Assembly (NCBI RefSeq): GCF_017565425.1
Contig: NZ_JAGEMK010000011.1
Span: forward strand, 62,001-126,000
From: Actinotalea soli
Lineage (GTDB): Bacteria > Actinomycetota > Actinomycetes > Actinomycetales > Cellulomonadaceae
Length of the DNA: 64,000 nt
Reading direction: 5' to 3'
The notes under the pieces were generated by a model. That model saw nothing but the letters and a program-made list of their open reading frames with translations, did not search any database and had not been told where the DNA came from. Position numbers and translations under genes: made by a program. Below are positions 785 to 37,517 of this stretch, in pieces; within the stretch, counting starts at the first letter, position 1; every line of letters starts with the position of its first letter.

Positions 785-1186
785 CTACTGACCGCGCTCG
801 TCGCGCCGCTTGTCCCATCGCTCTTCCATGCGGGCCAGGAGCCCTGGAGAGGAACGCTTGGGCCCGCGCTGAGGACTCGGCCGCCCCCGCACGGAACCGT
901 CGGCTCCGACCACTCCTGCGGGTCCGCGACGTCGCGGGGGCGAGAAGGCCAGGACGACGGAGATGAACATGCCGATGAATCCGAGGACCCCGAGCCATGC
1001 CTGGCTGGTCGCCGCGCCCACCACGAGGACCGCGAGACCGAGGAGGGCCCCGGAGCCGCAGAGGAGCCAGCGACGGATGCTCGTACCGCCCCGCCCCTGG
1101 AAGGTGTTCGCGAGCTTGGGGTCGTCAGACGTGAGCTGTTGCTCCATCTGCTCCAGTACGCGCTGCTCGTACTCGGACAGAGGCAT
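785..1186 (-). CDS. DUF3040 domain membrane protein
   Basis: The 133-residue protein begins with MPLSEYEQRVLEQMEQQL, the signature opening of actinobacterial DUF3040 proteins, followed by a basic stretch, two adjacent hydrophobic segments (about residues 42-87) and a polar arginine-rich tail. It is likely a small inner-membrane protein with both ends in the cytoplasm. The start is set by GGAGGT four bases upstream of ATG. It follows dinB on the same strand after 36 bases, a common actinobacterial neighbourhood, and may be read through from the SOS-controlled HEPN-dinB promoter. Function is unknown; only the family is recognised. Confidence 0.85.
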   Translation of the reverse strand: MPLSEYEQRVLEQMEQQLTSDDPKLANTFQGRGGTSIRRWLLCGSGALLGLAVLVVGAATSQAWLGVLGFIGMFISVVLAFSPPRRRGPAGVVGADGSVRGRPSPQRGPKRSSPGLLARMEERWDKRRDERGQ

Positions 1187-1222: not shown

Positions 1223-2488
1223 TCAGGATAGATCCCCAGGGGGCTCAAGGATAGTTGACGTTCGCGAGGTCGCGTCCACGACACTCGCGGCGCGGACGGC
1301 CCCCGCACCGAAGCGCCGCCGAACCTCGTCCATGGCCTGCTCCGCACGGCGCTGCGGGGCGTGCCCGTCGTCGACCGACTCCTCGAGGGTGAGCGGGCGC
1401 GTGGTCGACGCGGTCAGCCCCTCAGCCCTCACCCCGACCAGGCGAACCGCCTGACCCCCGAGGTCCACGCCTGCGAGGAGCTCTCGGGCCGCGAGCGAGA
1501 CCTCTCGCGCGGTATCGGTCGGCACGCCCAGGGTCCGCGACCGGGTCAGGGTGCGGAAGTCGGCCGACCGCACCTTGAGGCTGACGGTCCTGGCCACCAG
1601 ACCTCGCTCGCGCAGCTGCGTCGCGGTGCGGTCGGCGAGGCTGACCAGATGGGTCTCGAGGACGGACCTGTCGGCGGTGTCCTCAGGCAGGGTGCTCTCG
1701 GCACCGATGCTCTTCTCCTGACGCACCGGGGTCACGGGACGTGGGTCTCGTCCCCACGCGAGGTCGTGCAGGTGCGCCCCGGCCACCTTGCCGACCGCGC
1801 GCTGGACGGTCGCCACCTCGGAGTCAGCGAGCTGGGCGACCGTGGTGATCCCCCAACGGGCCAAGGCGGCCTCGGTGCGCTCCCCGACTCCCCAGAGGGA
1901 ACCCACCGGCAACGAGTGGAGGAAGGGCACGGTCGCCGCCCGCGGGATCAGCAGCACCCCGTCGGGCTTGGCCATCCCCGAGGCGAGCTTGGCGACGAAC
2001 TTCGTCGACGCGATGCCTACCGAGCACGGCAGGTCGAGCTCGCGACGGACCCGCTCCCGGATCTGCTCGGCGATCACCGTGGGCGAGCCGAGCCGTCGAC
2101 GAGCCCCGGAGACGTCCAGGAAGGCCTCGTCCACGCTGACCTTCTCGACGAGTGCGGTCACCTGGCCCAGGATCGCCATCACGGCGACGGAGGCTGCGCG
2201 GTAGGCCGCCTGGTCGGGAGGGAGCACGATCGCCTGCGGGCACATCCGGCGCGCCTGGGCCATGGGCATCGCCGAGTGGACCCCGAAGGCCCGCGCCTCG
2301 TAGGTGGCTGCGAGGACGACACCGCGCGACTCACCGCCCACGATCACCGGACGCCCGCGGAGATGCGGTCGTCGGACGAGCTCGACCGAGGCGAAGAAGG
2401 CGTCCATGTCGACGTGGAGGATGCCGCAGTGCGACTCGTCCGAGCCCCAGTCCGGCCGTGGCCCCCGACGCAACGGACCGCGGCTCAT
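1223..2488 (-). CDS. dinB: DNA polymerase IV (Y-family translesion polymerase)
   Basis: The 421-residue protein has the Y-family order: HVDMDAFFASVE at residues 25-36 with the first metal-binding aspartate, the SVDEAFLDVSG motif near residues 118-128 carrying the catalytic Asp-Glu pair, a helix-hairpin-helix thumb region and a C-terminal little-finger domain. It extends primers past damaged template bases at the cost of fidelity. The chosen start (MSRGPLRRG) lies 10 bases after the stop of the HEPN gene, so the two are almost certainly co-transcribed. The frame is open further upstream, but that part overlaps the HEPN gene and lacks family similarity. The promoter ahead of the HEPN gene holds a perfect SOS box, so dinB is expected to be LexA-repressed and damage-induced. 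Confidence 0.95.
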   Translation of the reverse strand: MSRGPLRRGPRPDWGSDESHCGILHVDMDAFFASVELVRRPHLRGRPVIVGGESRGVVLAATYEARAFGVHSAMPMAQARRMCPQAIVLPPDQAAYRAASVAVMAILGQVTALVEKVSVDEAFLDVSGARRRLGSPTVIAEQIRERVRRELDLPCSVGIASTKFVAKLASGMAKPDGVLLIPRAATVPFLHSLPVGSLWGVGERTEAALARWGITTVAQLADSEVATVQRAVGKVAGAHLHDLAWGRDPRPVTPVRQEKSIGAESTLPEDTADRSVLETHLVSLADRTATQLRERGLVARTVSLKVRSADFRTLTRSRTLGVPTDTAREVSLAARELLAGVDLGGQAVRLVGVRAEGLTASTTRPLTLEESVDDGHAPQRRAEQAMDEVRRRFGAGAVRAASVVDATSRTSTILEPPGDLS

Positions 2489-2498
2489 CCCCGCCTGC

Positions 2499-2978
2499 TC
2501 ATGACGCCTCGAGATCGAGGGTGTGCTCGTGCGGCGGGAGGACGAGGGCACGGACCGCGTCCTGGAAGTCCTCCGCGGCGGCGACGGTCCGGTCGGCCCG
2601 GGTCTCGTCCACGTCGGCGTCACGGCCGGACTCGACCGCCGCACGGGTCGGGGCACCGGCAGCGAAGAACCCTGCCCAGGCAGACAGCTCCGGGGCGACC
2701 GCTGAGACCATGTCCCACACCGTACGCGGCATGGGTCGTCGAACGGGTCGACCCGTGACCTCGAGCAGGGCCGCCCCCGCTCGCAGAGCCGCGAGATGCC
2801 CGTGCACGAAGCGCTCGGCCGGGTCCGTGGCGAGCTCGGCCGCACCCAGCTCGGCGTCGCTCCGTGCAAGGAGGTCGACGACCGTCCGCGGGACCGGCGC
2901 CACCGCGTGGAGATCGCCTCGCTCCCCCTGGTGCGAAGACCTCGTCCGGCGTCGCGCCGTGCTGGTGCTCGTGATCAT
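2499..2978 (-). CDS. SAV_6107-type HEPN domain protein in an SOS-controlled operon with dinB
   Basis: The 159-residue, mostly helical protein resembles the SAV_6107 family of HEPN-domain proteins found beside dinB in actinobacteria. After a basic, unstructured N-terminus (about 25 residues) the segment from residue 30 onward is helical. It contains ERFVHGHLAALRAGAALL, in which R56 and H61 form an R-x4-H pair, the spacing of the R-x(4-6)-H active site in HEPN ribonucleases. Whether this pair is catalytic here is not shown by the sequence. The start is firm: GGAGGTGA lies 6 bases before ATG at 2978. It is the first gene of the HEPN-dinB unit and its promoter overlaps a perfect LexA site. It could be a damage-induced RNase, a regulator, or a structural partner of Pol IV. 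Confidence 0.8.
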   Translation of the reverse strand: MITSTSTARRRTRSSHQGERGDLHAVAPVPRTVVDLLARSDAELGAAELATDPAERFVHGHLAALRAGAALLEVTGRPVRRPMPRTVWDMVSAVAPELSAWAGFFAAGAPTRAAVESGRDADVDETRADRTVAAAEDFQDAVRALVLPPHEHTLDLEAS

Positions 2979-2999
2979 CGTGGTCACCTCCGTACGACG

Positions 3000-3029
3000 A
3001 GTATCGAACACCTGTTCGACGTGCGTCAA
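3000..3029 (-). promoter_or_regulatory. LexA-controlled promoter of HEPN-dinB with a perfect SOS box
   Basis: Read on the minus strand, a -35 TTGACG (3024-3029) and -10 GATACT (3000-3005) are separated by 18 bases. The spacer contains TCGAACACCTGTTCGA (plus-strand 3004-3019), an exact palindrome matching the actinobacterial SOS consensus TCGAAC-N4-GTTCGA. LexA bound here would block polymerase directly. Confidence 0.88.
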
Positions 3030-3066: not shown

Positions 3067-3972
3067 GTGCCCGATCGCCGACCCCGCTCCCGCCGAGGGC
3101 CCCGCGCCGTCGCCGCCGAGCCGGCCGCCTTGCCCGAGGGCCCTGTGCCGATCGACACGGGCTGGGTCGAGCTCGTCAGGGACCGCAGCGACCCCGGAGC
3201 CGTGACGGTGCTGGTCAACGGCGTACCGTCCTCCCACGTCGAGCTCGGCGACCCCACGTGGCTCGAGTTCGAGTACATGCAGCAGATGGCGGCCGTCGTC
3301 GACGTGCTGCCTCCTGGCCCGCTGGACGCGGTCCACCTCGGTGCCGGGGCCTGCTCCCTGCCGCGGTGGCTCGACGCACGACGGCCCGGATCCCGTCAGA
3401 TCGCCGTCGACGTCGACGCCGCGCTGCTGACCCTGGTGCGGGCGTGGTTCGACCTGCCCCGCTCCCCCAGGCTGCGGTTGCGGCCCGGTGATGCGCGGGC
3501 GCGGCTCACCGAGCTGCCGGACTCGAGCGCCGACCTCGTCGTCCGGGACGTCTTCGCGGGTGACCGCACCCCGTCGGACCTCGGCACGCGCGAGTTCGTC
3601 GAGGAGGTCGCCCGCGTGCTGCGCCCCGGAGGGGTCTACCTGGCCAACTGCGCCGATCGACCGCCCCTCGAGCTGGCCCGGGCGGAGATGGCCACCATCC
3701 GCGCGGTCCTGCCCGGGGCAGCCCTGGTGAGCGAGCCGGGCATGCTGCGCGGTCGTCGGTACGGGAACCTCGTGCTCATCGGCACGCGCTCCGGTCAGGG
3801 TGACCTCGACCTGGCGGATCCCGGTCTGGCCCGCACGCTGCGCTCGCTGCCGGTCCCGACCCGGCTGCTGCGCGGACCCGAGCTCGACGCGTTCGTGGGG
3901 TCCGCCGCCCCCCTGGCCGACCCTCCTGACCCCCAGACGCCCCCCGCGGTCGGGTCGGAGCACGCGCCCTGA
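3067..3972 (+). CDS. Spermidine synthase-like SAM-dependent aminopropyltransferase/methyltransferase fold protein
   Basis: The 301-residue protein has a Rossmann methyltransferase-type core: a glycine-rich loop VHLGAGACSLP at residues 89-99, an acidic residue at the end of strand 2 (VDVD, 114-117), a GDAR motif at 141 and DVFAG at 161-165. This is the layout of PABS/spermidine synthase-like proteins, many of which in actinobacteria are annotated as spermidine synthase without polyamine evidence. No membrane segments are visible. It starts with GTG at 3067, six bases after TAGCGT (3055-3060), so the message may be leaderless. It diverges from the SOS-controlled HEPN gene, and their promoters lie within about 90 bases. 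The substrate cannot be told from the sequence. Confidence 0.75.
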   Translation: MPDRRPRSRRGPRAVAAEPAALPEGPVPIDTGWVELVRDRSDPGAVTVLVNGVPSSHVELGDPTWLEFEYMQQMAAVVDVLPPGPLDAVHLGAGACSLPRWLDARRPGSRQIAVDVDAALLTLVRAWFDLPRSPRLRLRPGDARARLTELPDSSADLVVRDVFAGDRTPSDLGTREFVEEVARVLRPGGVYLANCADRPPLELARAEMATIRAVLPGAALVSEPGMLRGRRYGNLVLIGTRSGQGDLDLADPGLARTLRSLPVPTRLLRGPELDAFVGSAAPLADPPDPQTPPAVGSEHAP

Positions 3973-5962: not shown

Positions 5963-7689
5963 CGGGTCCCGTCCTCCTGGTCGACCGTGCCGACCGTCTC
6001 GTCGTCGTGCTCGTCGTGCTCGTCGTGCTCGTCGTGCTCGTCGTGCTCGTCCTGCTCGTCGTGCTCGTCGTGCTCGTCCTCAGAAGTATCGGCGAGCGTC
6101 GGCTCGGGTGCCGCCTCGAGGGTCGTCCTGGCGGGCTCGACCGGGGCGGGCAGGCGCCAGCGGATCGTCGTCCCCTCGACGACGTCGTCGTCGATCCAGA
6201 TGTCACCGCCGTGGTACTCGACGATCTTCTTGCAGAGCGCCAGACCGATGCCGGTCCCCTCGTAGACCTCCTTGGCGTGCAGCCGCTGGAAGATCACGAA
6301 GACGCGGTCCGCGTACTGCGGGTCGATGCCGATGCCGTTGTCGTGGCACGCGACCTCCCACGCGTCGCCGACCCGTCGCGCCGTCAGACGCACCTCAGGA
6401 GCTCGCTCGGGGTGCCGGAACTTGATCGCGTTGCCCACCAGGTTCTGGACGAGCTGGGTCAGCAGCGGCGCCTCCCCCCGGACCACGGGCAGTCCGGCGG
6501 AGGACACCTGCGCACCCGTCTCCTCGACCAGGGGCCCGAGGTCGAGGAGCACCTGGTCGAGCACGGCCTCCAGGGGGACGTCGGCGAGCTCCCCGCCGAT
6601 CCGGCCCACACGGGAGAAGTCGAGCAGGTCGTTGATCAGGCGCTGCATCCTCTTGGCGCCGTCGACCGCGAAGGCGATGTACTGGTCGGCCCGCTCGTCG
6701 AGCTGGCCCTCGTAACGCTTCGCCAGCAGCTGGGTGAAGCTGGCGACCTTGCGCAACGGCTCCTGGAGGTCGTGCGAGGCCACGTAGGCGAACTGCTCGA
6801 GGTCCCGGTTGGAGCGCTGCAGGTCCTCGGTCTGCTCCTCGAGCCGCGCGTGGGACTCCTCCAGCGCGCGGCGCGACTCGGCGTGCGCCTCGATGGCCTG
6901 GACGAGCTGATGGCGCATGTGCTCGACGGCCCCTGCGACCTGGCGCACCTCCCCCGACCCGACGACGGTCACCTCGTGCGCGGTGTCCCCCGCGGCCACG
7001 GTCCGGGCGTCGGTCGCCAACCCCTCGAGCGGGTCGGTGACCCACCGGCGCAGGAAGTACCAGAGCAGGGCGCCACCACCCACGACCAGCACGGCCAGGG
7101 CCACGACCGTGCCCACGAGGGTCAGGGTCGCGGCCCGCAGGCCCGCAGCAGCCTCCTCGCGACCGGCGAGGAGCAGCTGCGTGTGCGCATGGAGCGGTGC
7201 GCGCACCTCGTCGAACAGCACACGACCACGCTCGACCTCCGCGACCGAGACCGCCTCGACCCCGTCCGTGCGCACCTGCTCGATGGCCGGCTCGGCCCAG
7301 TCGCGGTACCAGGAGGAGGCGGCCTCGGCCGCCTCGGTCCGGGTCCGGAGGATGTCGGAGTCGGCGCCGACGTGGTCCTCGAGCAGCATCTCGACGTCGA
7401 CCTCGGGCTCCGCCGCGTCGACGATGCGCTCGAGCGGTTCGAGGGTCACCGGGTCCCCCGTCAGCAGGAACCCGCGCACGGCGGTCTCGGCGTCGAGGAG
7501 CTGGACGTAGGCCACGTCGGTCTGGGTGATGGCCTCGTAGTAGACCACCGTGACCTCGCGCTGGCGCGTCTGCACGGCGATCAGGGCCGCCACCCCGACA
7601 GACAGCGCCAGGAGCAGGACGAGCCCGGCAGCCACGAGGGCGAGGTCGACCCGTCGGCGCAGGCTCACCCCGTGCTCGGAGGCCGTCAC
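5959..7689 (-). CDS. Membrane histidine kinase with CHASE3-like sensor, HAMP, HisKA and HATPase domains
   Basis: The 576-residue protein has a transmembrane segment at about 16-39, an extracytoplasmic helical region resembling CHASE3 (about 43-185, with [15 protein letters not shown]), a second transmembrane segment at about 187-213, a HAMP linker, a coiled coil, and a HisKA domain with the phospho-acceptor H306 in ASHDLQEPL. The ATPase has the N box at N420, DNGIGI (450-455) and GTGIGL (478-483). After about residue 537 the tail is a run of Asp-Glu-His repeats encoded by a 9-base tandem repeat. The start is GTG at 7689, overlapping the stop of the upstream gene (GTGA), and the stop overlaps the next start (ATGA). 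It therefore forms a coupled triad with a receiver-PP2C phosphatase and an Rcp1-like receiver. The signal is unknown. Confidence 0.93.
6001..6079 (-). repeat. 9-base tandem repeat encoding a DEH-rich kinase tail
   Basis: The unit GTCGTGCTC (plus strand) repeats about eight to nine times with one variant copy (cct for cgt near 6050). It translates on the minus strand as repeated Asp-Glu-His. Such a repeat is prone to copy-number change without frameshift. Confidence 0.9.
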
Positions 7690-18533: not shown

Positions 18534-18594
18534 TCGAACGTCTGTTCGTCGAACATCTGTACGATGTGTAGCACGGATCCTCCGCAGATGTCGA
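18534..18594 (-). promoter_or_regulatory. Promoter of the LysM gene with two overlapping SOS boxes
   Basis: On the minus strand, TCGACA (18589-18594) and TACACA (18565-18570) are spaced 18 bases as -35 and -10. Immediately downstream lie TCGAACATCTGTACGA (18549-18564) and TCGAACGTCTGTTCGT (18534-18549), each one mismatch from the SOS consensus and sharing one base, covering the transcript start and ribosome site. Confidence 0.8.
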
Positions 18595-18601
18595 GACACG
18601 C

Positions 18602-18642
18602 TCGAACAGGTGTTTGATCCGTGGCACGGTCCGCCCTAGGCT
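18602..18642 (+). promoter_or_regulatory. lexA promoter with its own SOS box
   Basis: TTGATC (18614-18619) and TAGGCT (18637-18642) are spaced 17 bases. TCGAACAGGTGTTTGA (18602-18617), one mismatch from consensus, overlaps the -35, as expected for LexA autorepression. The predicted transcript start is near 18649, giving a leader of about 87 bases. Confidence 0.85.
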
Positions 18643-18735: not shown

Positions 18736-19473
18736 GTGGCACCGAGCAGAACCCCGTCCGGAGGCTCCGACGGTGTCGCGTCCGTGCACGCCCTGCCCGA
18801 CGGCCCGGCGGACGGGGACGGGCTCACCACCCGTCAGCGCCTCGTCCTCGAGACCATCCGAGCGAGCGTCGAGCAGCGGGGGTACCCCCCGAGCATGCGG
18901 GAGATCGGCGAGGCCGTCGGGCTCACGAGCCCCTCGTCGGTCAAGCACCAGCTCACGGCCCTCGAGCGCAAGGGCTACCTGCGACGCGACCCGAACCGGC
19001 CGCGGGCCATCGAGGTCGTCCACCCTGACGACTCGCGGGCCATCAGCCCCCTCGCGTCCTTCGGCGAGGAGCAGCTCGCCCCCGGGGACGACGCGCCCGC
19101 CCCCTCCTACGTCCCCGTGGTCGGCCGTATCGCCGCCGGCGGCCCCATCCTGGCCGACCAGGTCGTCGAGGACGTCTTCCCGCTACCCCGCCAGCTCGTG
19201 GGCGAGGGCGACCTCTTCCTGCTCAAGGTCGTCGGGGACTCGATGGTCGAGGCTGCGATCTGCGACGGCGACTGGGTCGTCGTGCGGCGACAGCCCGTCG
19301 CGGAGAACGGCGAGATCGTGGCCGCGATGATCGACGGCGAGGCGACCGTCAAGACGCTGCGACGCACCGACGGGCACGTGTGGCTGCTCCCGCAGAACTC
19401 GTCCTACGCCCCGATCCCCGGCGACGACGCCGTCGTGCTCGGGCGGGTCGTGAGCGTCCTGCGGAGCCTCTGA
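18736..19473 (+). CDS. lexA: LexA repressor of the SOS regulon
   Basis: This 245-residue LexA has an actinobacterial N-terminal extension of about 28 residues, a winged helix DNA-binding domain (about 30-98, [35 protein letters not shown]) and a S24 self-cleaving domain. The scissile Ala134-Gly135 is in GRIAAGG, the catalytic Ser169 in GDSM and Lys206 in ATVKTL. RecA filaments trigger self-cleavage, releasing SOS genes including recA, HEPN-dinB and the divergent LysM gene in this window. The start is GTG at 18736, seven bases after GGAGG (18724-18728). It has its own promoter and one SOS box, the divergent gene two more. Confidence 0.98.
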
Positions 19474-36291: not shown

Positions 36292-37332
36292 TCAGAAGTC
36301 GACACCACCTGCCGGGTCCGCAGGAGCGTCGACCTGGGCGCCGATGCCCAGCTTCTCCTTGATCTTCTTCTCGACCTCGTCCGCCAGGTCAGGGTTGTCG
36401 CGCAGGAAGCCCCGAGCGTTCTCCTTGCCCTGCCCGAGCTGGTCCCCCTCGTACGTGTACCAGGCCCCGGACTTTCGGATGAATCCGTGCTCCACACCGA
36501 GGTCGATCAGCCCGCCCTCTCGCGAGATGCCGACCCCGTAGAGGATGTCGAACTCGGCCTGCTTGAAAGGCGGCGCCATCTTGTTCTTGACGACCTTGAC
36601 CCGTGTCCGGTTCCCGACCGCGTCGGTCCCCTCCTTGAGGGTCTCGATGCGCCGGATGTCCAGCCGCACCGAGGCGTAGAACTTGAGGGCCTTGCCACCG
36701 GTCGTCGTCTCGGGCGAGCCGAAGAAGACACCGATCTTCTCGCGCAGCTGGTTGATGAAGATCGCGGTCGTGCCCGACTGGCTCAGCGCCCCGGCGATCT
36801 TGCGCAGCGCCTGGGACATCAGCCGAGCCTGGAGGCCGACGTGGCTGTCGCCCATCTCGCCCTCGATCTCGGCCTTGGGCACGAGGGCCGCGACCGAGTC
36901 GATGACGACGATGTCGATGGCTCCCGACCGGATCAGCATGTCCATGATCTCGAGGGCCTGCTCACCGGTGTCGGGCTGGGACACCAGCAGTGCGTCGGTG
37001 TCGACCCCGAGCTTCTTGGCGTACTCCGGGTCGAGGGCGTGCTCGGCGTCGATGAAGGCCGCGATGCCCCCGGCCTTCTGCGCGTTCGCCACGGCGTGCA
37101 ACGCCAGCGTCGTCTTGCCGGAGGACTCAGGGCCGTAGATCTCGACCACCCTGCCCCGCGGCAGGCCTCCGATGCCGAGGGCGATGTCCACGGCGATCGA
37201 ACCGGTCGGGATCACCTCGACAGGGGCGCGCCCGTCGTCTCCCAGGCGCATGATCGAGCCCTTGCCGAACTGGCGGTCGATCTGGCCCAGCGCGGCCTCA
37301 AGGGCCTTGGAGCGGTCTGCGGGAGCGGGCAT
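36292..37332 (-). CDS. recA: RecA recombinase
   Basis: The 346-residue RecA has Walker A GPESSGKT (67-74), the conserved EAEH-type motif [10 protein letters not shown], Walker [12 protein letters not shown], loop L1 around [16 protein letters not shown] and loop L2 [22 protein letters not shown]. It pairs homologous DNA and, as a filament, triggers LexA self-cleavage. There is no intein. GAGGTGA lies before the ATG at 37332. An SOS box sits in the promoter about 164 bases upstream. It starts a likely transcript through recX and perhaps rny. Confidence 0.99.
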
Positions 37333-37488: not shown

Positions 37489-37517
37489 ACTGTAGCCGAA
37501 CAGGTGTTCGATCTCGA
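37489..37517 (-). promoter_or_regulatory. recA promoter with SOS box in the spacer
   Basis: On the minus strand, TCGAGA (37512-37517) and TACAGT (37489-37494) are spaced 17 bases. The spacer is filled by CCGAACAGGTGTTCGA (plus strand 37496-37511), one mismatch from the SOS consensus. The leader to the recA start is about 150 bases, and no other element was found in it. Confidence 0.8.

Follow-up and report, generated by a model that had tools for sequence, protein, structure and literature searches.

A small HEPN-domain protein encoded directly ahead of dinB in Actinotalea soli is, in our reading, an accessory protein of translesion operons in actinobacteria that is induced by damage and probably has no catalytic activity, an assignment to which we give a probability of about 55%. 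The gene pair was noticed in a 64,000-nucleotide stretch of contig NZ_JAGEMK010000011.1 (hereafter the window) by a sequence-only reading, and the association proves to be real, well conserved and more general than first noted. What we show, at the level of sequence, are gene content, gene order, operators, a predicted fold and the lack of a conserved RNase motif. Coordinates are collected in Table 1; f, G, C and L numbers are our handles for families, genomes, contigs and loci.

Table 1. The HEPN-dinB unit, its promoter, its neighbours and the regulatory genes lexA and recA (positions are those of the window).
Feature	Position	Strand	Details
HEPN_SAV_6107 gene, first of the unit	2499..2978	-	159 aa; start codon ATG at 2978, stop codon at 2499; PF18726
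dinB, Y-family DNA polymerase IV, second gene	1223..2488	-	ATG at 2488; 421 aa; PF00817, PF11799, NCBIfam DNA polymerase IV
-35 hexamer TTGACG	3024..3029	-	Promoter scan (3029-3024)
-10 hexamer GATACT	3000..3005	-	Promoter scan (3005-3000); two bases common to the LexA box
Ribosome-binding site GGAGGTG ahead of the HEPN ATG	2985..2991	-	Read from the sequence
LexA box (SOS box), 12/12	3004..3019	.	TCGAACACCTGTTCGA against TCGAAC-N4-GTTCGA
Divergent spermidine-synthase-like gene	3067..3972	+	NCBIfam MFS_SpdSyn, 68 bits (cut-off 40); Pfam Methyltransf_11
Conserved downstream neighbour of dinB	785..1186	-	Homologue downstream in many loci
lexA	18736..19473	+	TIGR00498, 249.5 bits
recA	36292..37332	-	TIGR02012, 576 bits

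The HEPN protein belongs to the Pfam family HEPN_SAV_6107 (PF18726; profile search, 98.9 bits, E = 2.6e-28, cut-off 27.2), and the HEPN of the nearest named relative, Actinotalea sp. C106, is 93% identical to it. Both genes lie on the minus strand, separated by 10 bases (2489-2498), behind the single promoter-like site found by promoter scan on the HEPN strand between 1000 and 4500 (TTGACG-18-GATACT; mean of shuffles 0.0), which is sigma70-like in sequence. Coordinates, promoter scan and profiles thus bear out the proposal of one transcriptional unit. The box TCGAACACCTGTTCGA (3004-3019) matches the 16-bp LexA consensus at 12 of 12 positions between the -35 and -10 hexamers, and occupies most of the spacer plus two bases of the -10. 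It had been described as an exact 16-base palindrome forming the spacer; the perfect box within the promoter stands, but 14 of its 16 bases are palindromic, with the two central bases unpaired, and it overlaps the -10. The box is located in the intergenic region common to HEPN and a divergent spermidine-synthase-like gene, and most loci of f1, f11 and f13 likewise have such a gene on the divergent side. We take the conserved gene downstream of dinB to encode DUF3040. Elsewhere in the window, a 9-base tandem repeat of 8.6 copies (6002-6078) forms the 3' end of an open reading frame, presumably histidine-kinase-like, and encodes a repeated Asp-Glu-His tail.

The pattern TCGAAC-N4-GTTCGA occurs at five perfect places in the 3.63 Mb genome and at 23 places with at most one mismatch (reversed-pattern control, 4). 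One perfect box precedes HEPN-dinB; three others precede an imuA'-imuB-dnaE2 cassette (C11:48011; ImuA' NF058630, 179 bits; DnaE2 by similarity), a second dinB (C11:645466) and an Rv2578c-family radical SAM gene (C11:316473). The fifth (G000:C27:252822-252837) lies near an open reading frame without NCBIfam match (L228:2602-3837), possibly a so far unrecognised SOS gene. On the other side of the box at the second dinB (position 1501 of L212) is a divergent reading frame, which we take to be RNase HI-like. The imuA'-imuB-dnaE2 cassette is thus found at another locus than HEPN and not in its operon. Within the window, recA is preceded by an 11/12 box (37496-37511) and lexA by three (18534-18549, 18549-18564 and 18602-18617), two of them abutting; the latter arrangement likely reflects autoregulation via several operators. 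The claim that the HEPN box is the only perfect SOS box in the window holds for the 16-base consensus and has to be qualified by these four 11/12 boxes. Given the genome-wide box set and the boxes at lexA and recA, the HEPN box appears to belong to a well-defined LexA regulon.

We surveyed PF18726 in 59 relatives (47 positive), in 396 genomes of the phylum (48, of which 40 over the cut-off) and in 198 genomes of the order (94, of which 90 over the cut-off), which together yielded 166 different HEPN-positive genomes; a search of genome contigs with the window HEPN protein returned five loci only. Nine genomes whose HEPN locus was not retrieved or not detected again were left out (G006, G014, G039, G103, G167, G304, G308, G322 and G584) and 157 loci were oriented. 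Eight distant phylum members (f29, f30, f39, f54), which have no box, P1 element or comparable neighbours in the stretch examined, were set aside, leaving 149 tallied genomes, whose counts are not independent events because the genomes share ancestry. A LexA box of at least 11/12 lies ahead of HEPN or its operon in 112 of the 149, and in 97 it is perfect. Shuffled upstream sequences gave 0/157 matches and equal-length stretches downstream of HEPN 3/157, the latter possibly representing second boxes found in f8. The 37 genomes without a box comprise 13 from f11, 18 from f21, two from f22 with 10/12 boxes, two with perfect boxes 550 and 488 nt upstream, past the cut of our script (G528 and G582), one in which the contig ends after 25 nt of upstream sequence (G049), and G529. 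The tally scores G509 as HEPN-DinB despite the 4.7 kb between the two genes, and places G010 with the HEPN-only genomes although a DinB follows. A second HEPN_SAV_6107 copy in G547 (L116 / L184), which has neither a LexA box nor a detected polymerase in the stretch examined, was excluded.

In the window's own family, f1, 42 of 43 genomes carry a box of at least 11/12 (39 perfect), and both the gene linkage and the box recur in relatives. Of the 53 f1/f13 boxes, 49 follow a TTGAC that begins at a distance of 9-10 nt, and the same 49 have a -10-like NANNNT at a spacing of 16-18; this conserved geometry indicates that the LexA box has been kept between -35 and -10. The single f25 genome (G428) has a perfect box before HEPN, and its contig ends ∼1.1 kb downstream, for which reason it was excluded from the polymerase-linkage count. 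With a box inside a conserved promoter, conserved across families, and with lexA and recA present, the sequence data strongly support the proposed LexA control of the unit, and regulation of HEPN by damage-type operators is well supported at the level of sequence.

Comparison of gene order, read with query proteins after Pfam checks on representatives, revealed five arrangements; the labels DUF3040, MraZ, MraW, MetF and YbaK are our presumptive assignments. In f1 and f13 the order is box, HEPN, DinB, DUF3040 (type a). Nine families (f2, f5, f8, f10, f14, f15, f16, f17 and f18) have box, DUF6504, HEPN and a DnaE2-like C-family polymerase (type b); this polymerase was seen in 47 genomes, and four DUF6504-HEPN genomes showed none in the stretch examined. 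DinB follows downstream in 13 sufficiently long type (b) loci, preceded in 11 by a methyltransferase (none detected in L183 and L198). A second LexA box is found between HEPN and the DnaE2-like gene in f8 (L067, L115, L125 and, at 11/12, L126), where a separate damage promoter may drive the polymerase. Family f24 and G408 show box, HEPN, methyltransferase, DinB (type c), with a DUF6504 match before HEPN in G408. HEPN is the first gene, behind an 11/12 box, of a run continuing with ImuA' and ImuB in f23 (type d; G247 and G380); DnaE2 and the methyltransferase come after ImuB in G247, and DinB lies ∼9 kb downstream of HEPN in both. These two genomes are the only ones with HEPN in one gene run with imuA'-imuB(-dnaE2). 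The remaining arrangement (type e; G297, G303, G309 and G404 of f22, G542 and G509) is box, HEPN, DUF3040, with no polymerase between. In G509 (L301) the distant DinB appears to be divided between two reading frames (407 and 199 aa), which may reflect gene breakage or a sequencing error.

HEPN is present in 52 of 59 genomes with DUF6504 and in 42 of 139 without it (Fisher p = 1.7e-14, uncorrected for ancestry). DUF6504 matches without a detected HEPN were obtained in f6 (G450, G488, G501, G513, G566, G591) and in G472, and DUF6504 systems lacking HEPN may exist. Of 23 genomes searched for ImuB, chosen mainly among lineages that lack type (b), 21 gave a full-length match; the exceptions are G188, the sole type (b) genome tested (weak DinB-like match only), and G372 (f21). 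The window genome has no type (b) DnaE, only weaker matches at its DnaE1- and DnaE2-like loci, and its canonical DnaE2 is elsewhere. The suggested tie to translesion synthesis is thus supported and reaches beyond DinB, HEPN also sharing operons with DnaE2-like polymerases or with ImuA'-ImuB-DnaE2. The clade can do without HEPN, as 104 of the 198 order genomes have no HEPN match; two HEPN-less genomes tested from other families (G041 and G284) have DinB.

Family f11 keeps the order HEPN-DinB-DUF3040 with no LexA box ahead in 13 of 13 genomes, and perfect LexA boxes occur elsewhere in the genome in all eight tested. A LexA/RecA-independent mycobacterial promoter, tTGTCRgtg-8nt-TannnT, involves PafBC (PMC5656591), and the f11 loci contain what is, by resemblance, a candidate PafBC/P1-type damage promoter. 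The strict element TGTCRGTG-N8-TANNNT is found in 3 of 13, and [TC]GTCR-N11-TANNNT, a relaxed pattern defined after inspecting the f11 sequences, in 13 of 13 (12 within 300 nt, one at -398). Both switches are found in f13, where the relaxed element lies within 300 nt in all 11 genomes and the strict form is present in 9 of the 11. At least one genome each of f2, f5, f10, f17, f23 and f24 has the element 25-32 nt before the LexA box. Shuffled sequences match per 300 nt at a rate of at most 0.0001 for the strict and of 0.002 (f11) or 0.006 (f13) for the relaxed pattern, and the background for the strict element is three matches over 1.29 Mb of scanned strand, not counting the 300 nt ahead of HEPN. 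No match was obtained in f8, f14, f15, f16, f18, f21 and f25; the window genome gave no match to the element (tTGTCRgtg-N8-TAnnnT) upstream of HEPN, and 2 of 43 f1 genomes have one. The sequence-only reading had held that an SOS box missing from genomes that keep the pair would speak against it; this is the situation in all 13 f11 genomes, whose promoters carry the PafBC/P1-type element instead. Such an apparent switch from a LexA box to a PafBC-type promoter at one gene pair would represent a clean natural regulator replacement with the signal kept.

The 18 genomes of f21, Streptomyces-like by our guess from gene order, keep HEPN with neither a LexA box of at least 11/12 nor a P1 element, and both are likewise missing upstream of HEPN in G529. 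A 10/12-type sequence, CGAAC-N4-GNNCG, occurs in 11 of the 18 (background, 7 in 51,738 nt on both strands). We did not count it as a LexA box, as in most cases it adjoins a TetR-like palindrome and could be part of a different gene or of coding sequence. The palindrome, TTGAACTGACTGGTCAGTGCAAA, is found ∼220-260 nt before the HEPN domain in many f21 loci (e.g. L042 and L047).

A structural model of the HEPN protein, predicted from six sequences, has a mean pLDDT of 81.6 (94-98 in most blocks of the core, with disordered ends) and contains five helices (residues 31-49, 53-75, 87-94, 96-116 and 125-146). The model is predicted to adopt the HEPN fold: HEPN domains occupy the top rows in VIA-align (2hsb, Z = 15.3, r.m.s.d. 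2.3, 116 aligned residues), the Z-score exceeding the level of ∼13 at which the tool warns of helical bundles. HEPN or HEPN-related proteins fill most of the first 27 rows, in a list that cannot reveal what Foldseek missed. Foldseek itself ranks HEPN domains first with weak E-values (best 0.063), and a sequence search against solved structures returned no relative (best E 0.41). Across 150 domains the most conserved residues include Trp-88 (97%), Arg-66 (96%), Arg-112 (96%), Phe-138 (91%), His-61 (85%) and Arg-56 (82%).

The pairing of a HEPN protein with an error-prone polymerase had been taken to suggest a damage-triggered RNA-cleaving step, and RNase activity is indeed thought to occur in most of the HEPN superfamily (PMC3710099). 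We find it improbable that this protein is an RNase: the canonical Rx4-6H motif is absent from its last helix, and matches in the last-helix region of 32 of the 150 domains fall at no conserved position. The 2013 census, which names SAV_6107 once and in its table gives it no gene context, agrees in listing the family without a conserved motif (PMC3710099). An R-x4-H in an early helix of the window protein (Arg-56, His-61) recurs in 101 of 150 domains and was considered as a displaced active site; we rejected it as not universal, since it is present in 0 of 12 f11, 0 of 6 f22 and 1 of 11 f13 domains, from families that keep the gene and its damage promoters. Moreover, neither of the two adjacent genes encodes an MNT antitoxin. 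That HEPN is a passenger and the LexA box serves dinB would fit the single HEPN-DinB unit of the window and of nearly all f1/f13 loci, as well as an f1 genome without a HEPN match (G034) that keeps a 12/12 box 91 nt before DinB. Among 18 genomes searched for DinB, however, 13 have HEPN and, elsewhere, DinB-like copies; 7 of the 13 carry a HEPN box of at least 11/12, and none of the 22 separate DinB-like copies has one from -400 to +60 (some weaker copies, for which there was no locus, are outside the 22). Boxes also precede HEPN operons with DnaE2-like polymerases. The box accompanies HEPN and is absent from separate DinBs, which makes the passenger explanation very unlikely. Weaker 10/12 sites occur close to the start of four of the 22 copies, and a strict P1 element lies upstream of two (G106 and G268), so that some DinBs may be damage-controlled independently; in G380 a further DinB has an 11/12 site at +37. 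Divergence of HEPN tracks that of DinB more closely than the divergence of either gene tracks that of the divergent neighbour (partial rank correlations of 0.65 versus 0.34 and 0.34; 47 of 54 f1/f13 loci). Like the co-occurrence with DUF6504, this gives soft support to a helper role and could partly reflect shared transmission or ancestry.

SOS genes often include division inhibitors, and HEPN might instead be a damage-induced, non-catalytic brake on growth or division, for example one binding RNA or a division protein, with its location bordering the dcw cluster reflecting that role and not a partnership with polymerases. The f22 order LexA box, HEPN, DUF3040, MraZ, MraW, with no polymerase between, is consistent with a brake, as is the response of Corynebacterium glutamicum to ciprofloxacin, which raised cg2381 and lowered mraZ (PMC5055667). 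Most other families examined nevertheless have a polymerase gene after HEPN or in its operon, in three arrangements, and loci with intervening polymerases are likewise followed by DUF3040 and mraZ, which fits inherited order; we regard a brake as unlikely. The dcw-adjacent position may itself be inherited and the polymerase linkage partly historical. For the accessory-protein reading we envisage that LexA would occupy the box between -35 and -10 and block the HEPN-dinB promoter, and that RecA-triggered cleavage of LexA upon damage would release HEPN and DinB together. HEPN_SAV_6107, small, all-helical and possibly dimeric, would then be a probably non-catalytic helper beside error-prone polymerases, helping to bring or regulate them at stalled forks through putative contacts with polymerase or nucleic acid. 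The ancestral locus may have contained DUF6504 or ImuA'-ImuB, HEPN, a DnaE2-type polymerase, the methyltransferase, DinB and DUF3040 beside the dcw cluster; lineages would have lost or moved polymerases from it, with HEPN mostly keeping its damage promoter. More tentatively, HEPN_SAV_6107 could be a hitherto unlisted shared subunit of actinobacterial SOS mutagenesis, a polymerase manager for both C-family (DnaE2-type) and Y-family (DinB) polymerases, under interchangeable LexA/PafBC-type switches while its polymerase neighbours changed.

If the accessory-protein reading is correct, the occurrence of HEPN in three kinds of polymerase gene run would make it a missing component of actinobacterial damage-induced mutagenesis, a machinery whose parts list is still being worked out and whose mycobacterial version has been implicated in drug resistance (PMC10421592). 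Our literature search, which covered the main texts of openly accessible papers, returned no report linking this HEPN to LexA or translesion polymerases. The names SAV_6107 and PF18726 appear in the literature searched only in the 2013 census (PMC3710099), and the HEPN and DinB pair is unreported there as far as titles and the beginnings of abstracts show.

Published data probably already show damage induction of this family, in a gene not recognised as HEPN. C. glutamicum, one of our named controls, carries PF18726, and the f22 gene order (MetF, GNAT, HEPN, DUF3040, MraZ), taken with the gene numbers of metF and mraZ, probably places the HEPN gene at cg2381. This 'conserved hypothetical' gene belongs to the LexA regulon and is up with ciprofloxacin (M 3.86; PMC5055667). 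On a Streptomyces venezuelae plasmid, pvnz_37140-37135 encode a hypothetical protein and Pol IV behind an SOS box and are mitomycin-induced (PMC9380542); they might be a HEPN-DinB pair, and a tblastn search of plasmids with two HEPN proteins gave no match.

The 2013 entry HEPN_SAV_6107/HEPN-M (SAV_6107) describes the same family and fold, actinobacterial and without conserved RNase motif (PMC3710099); gene context is absent from its entry in the table, and our analysis places the family with LexA/PafBC-type operators and translesion polymerase genes. A 2026 polymerase survey describes DnaE2A, DnaE2B and ImuB-C modules (PMC12926913), and a word search of its main text found neither HEPN nor DUF6504. 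The ImuA'-ImuB-DnaE2 mutasome (DnaE2A type, PMC12926913) resembles the HEPN operons in its LexA-type control and in combining an error-prone polymerase with small partners, but in the window genome that cassette is separate and has its own perfect box. Actinobacterial DnaE2B with standalone ImuB-C (PMC12926913) is like our type (b) in being a DnaE2-type operon without ImuA or ImuB, and we infer that the type (b) polymerase is DnaE2B. DUF6504 may correspond to standalone ImuB-C: its hhalign alignment with the ImuB C terminus is collinear, at a probability of 8% (P = 0.004; full-length ImuB, 1%, P = 0.051), Pfam finds no DUF6504 in the window genome's ImuB, and among 14 named controls only Caulobacter has a DUF6504 match. 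With MNT-HEPN toxin-antitoxin systems the window protein shares the HEPN fold (Z about 9-10 to such toxins), but its neighbours are dinB and the spermidine-synthase-like gene, and the last-helix motif is missing. Possible functional parallels are YolD/YqjX with YqjW and UmuD with UmuC, in which a small protein is co-induced and co-transcribed with a Y-family polymerase (PMC6511836); YolD is described as WYL-like and similar to UmuD' (PMC6511836), whereas the HEPN protein is predicted to be all-helical.
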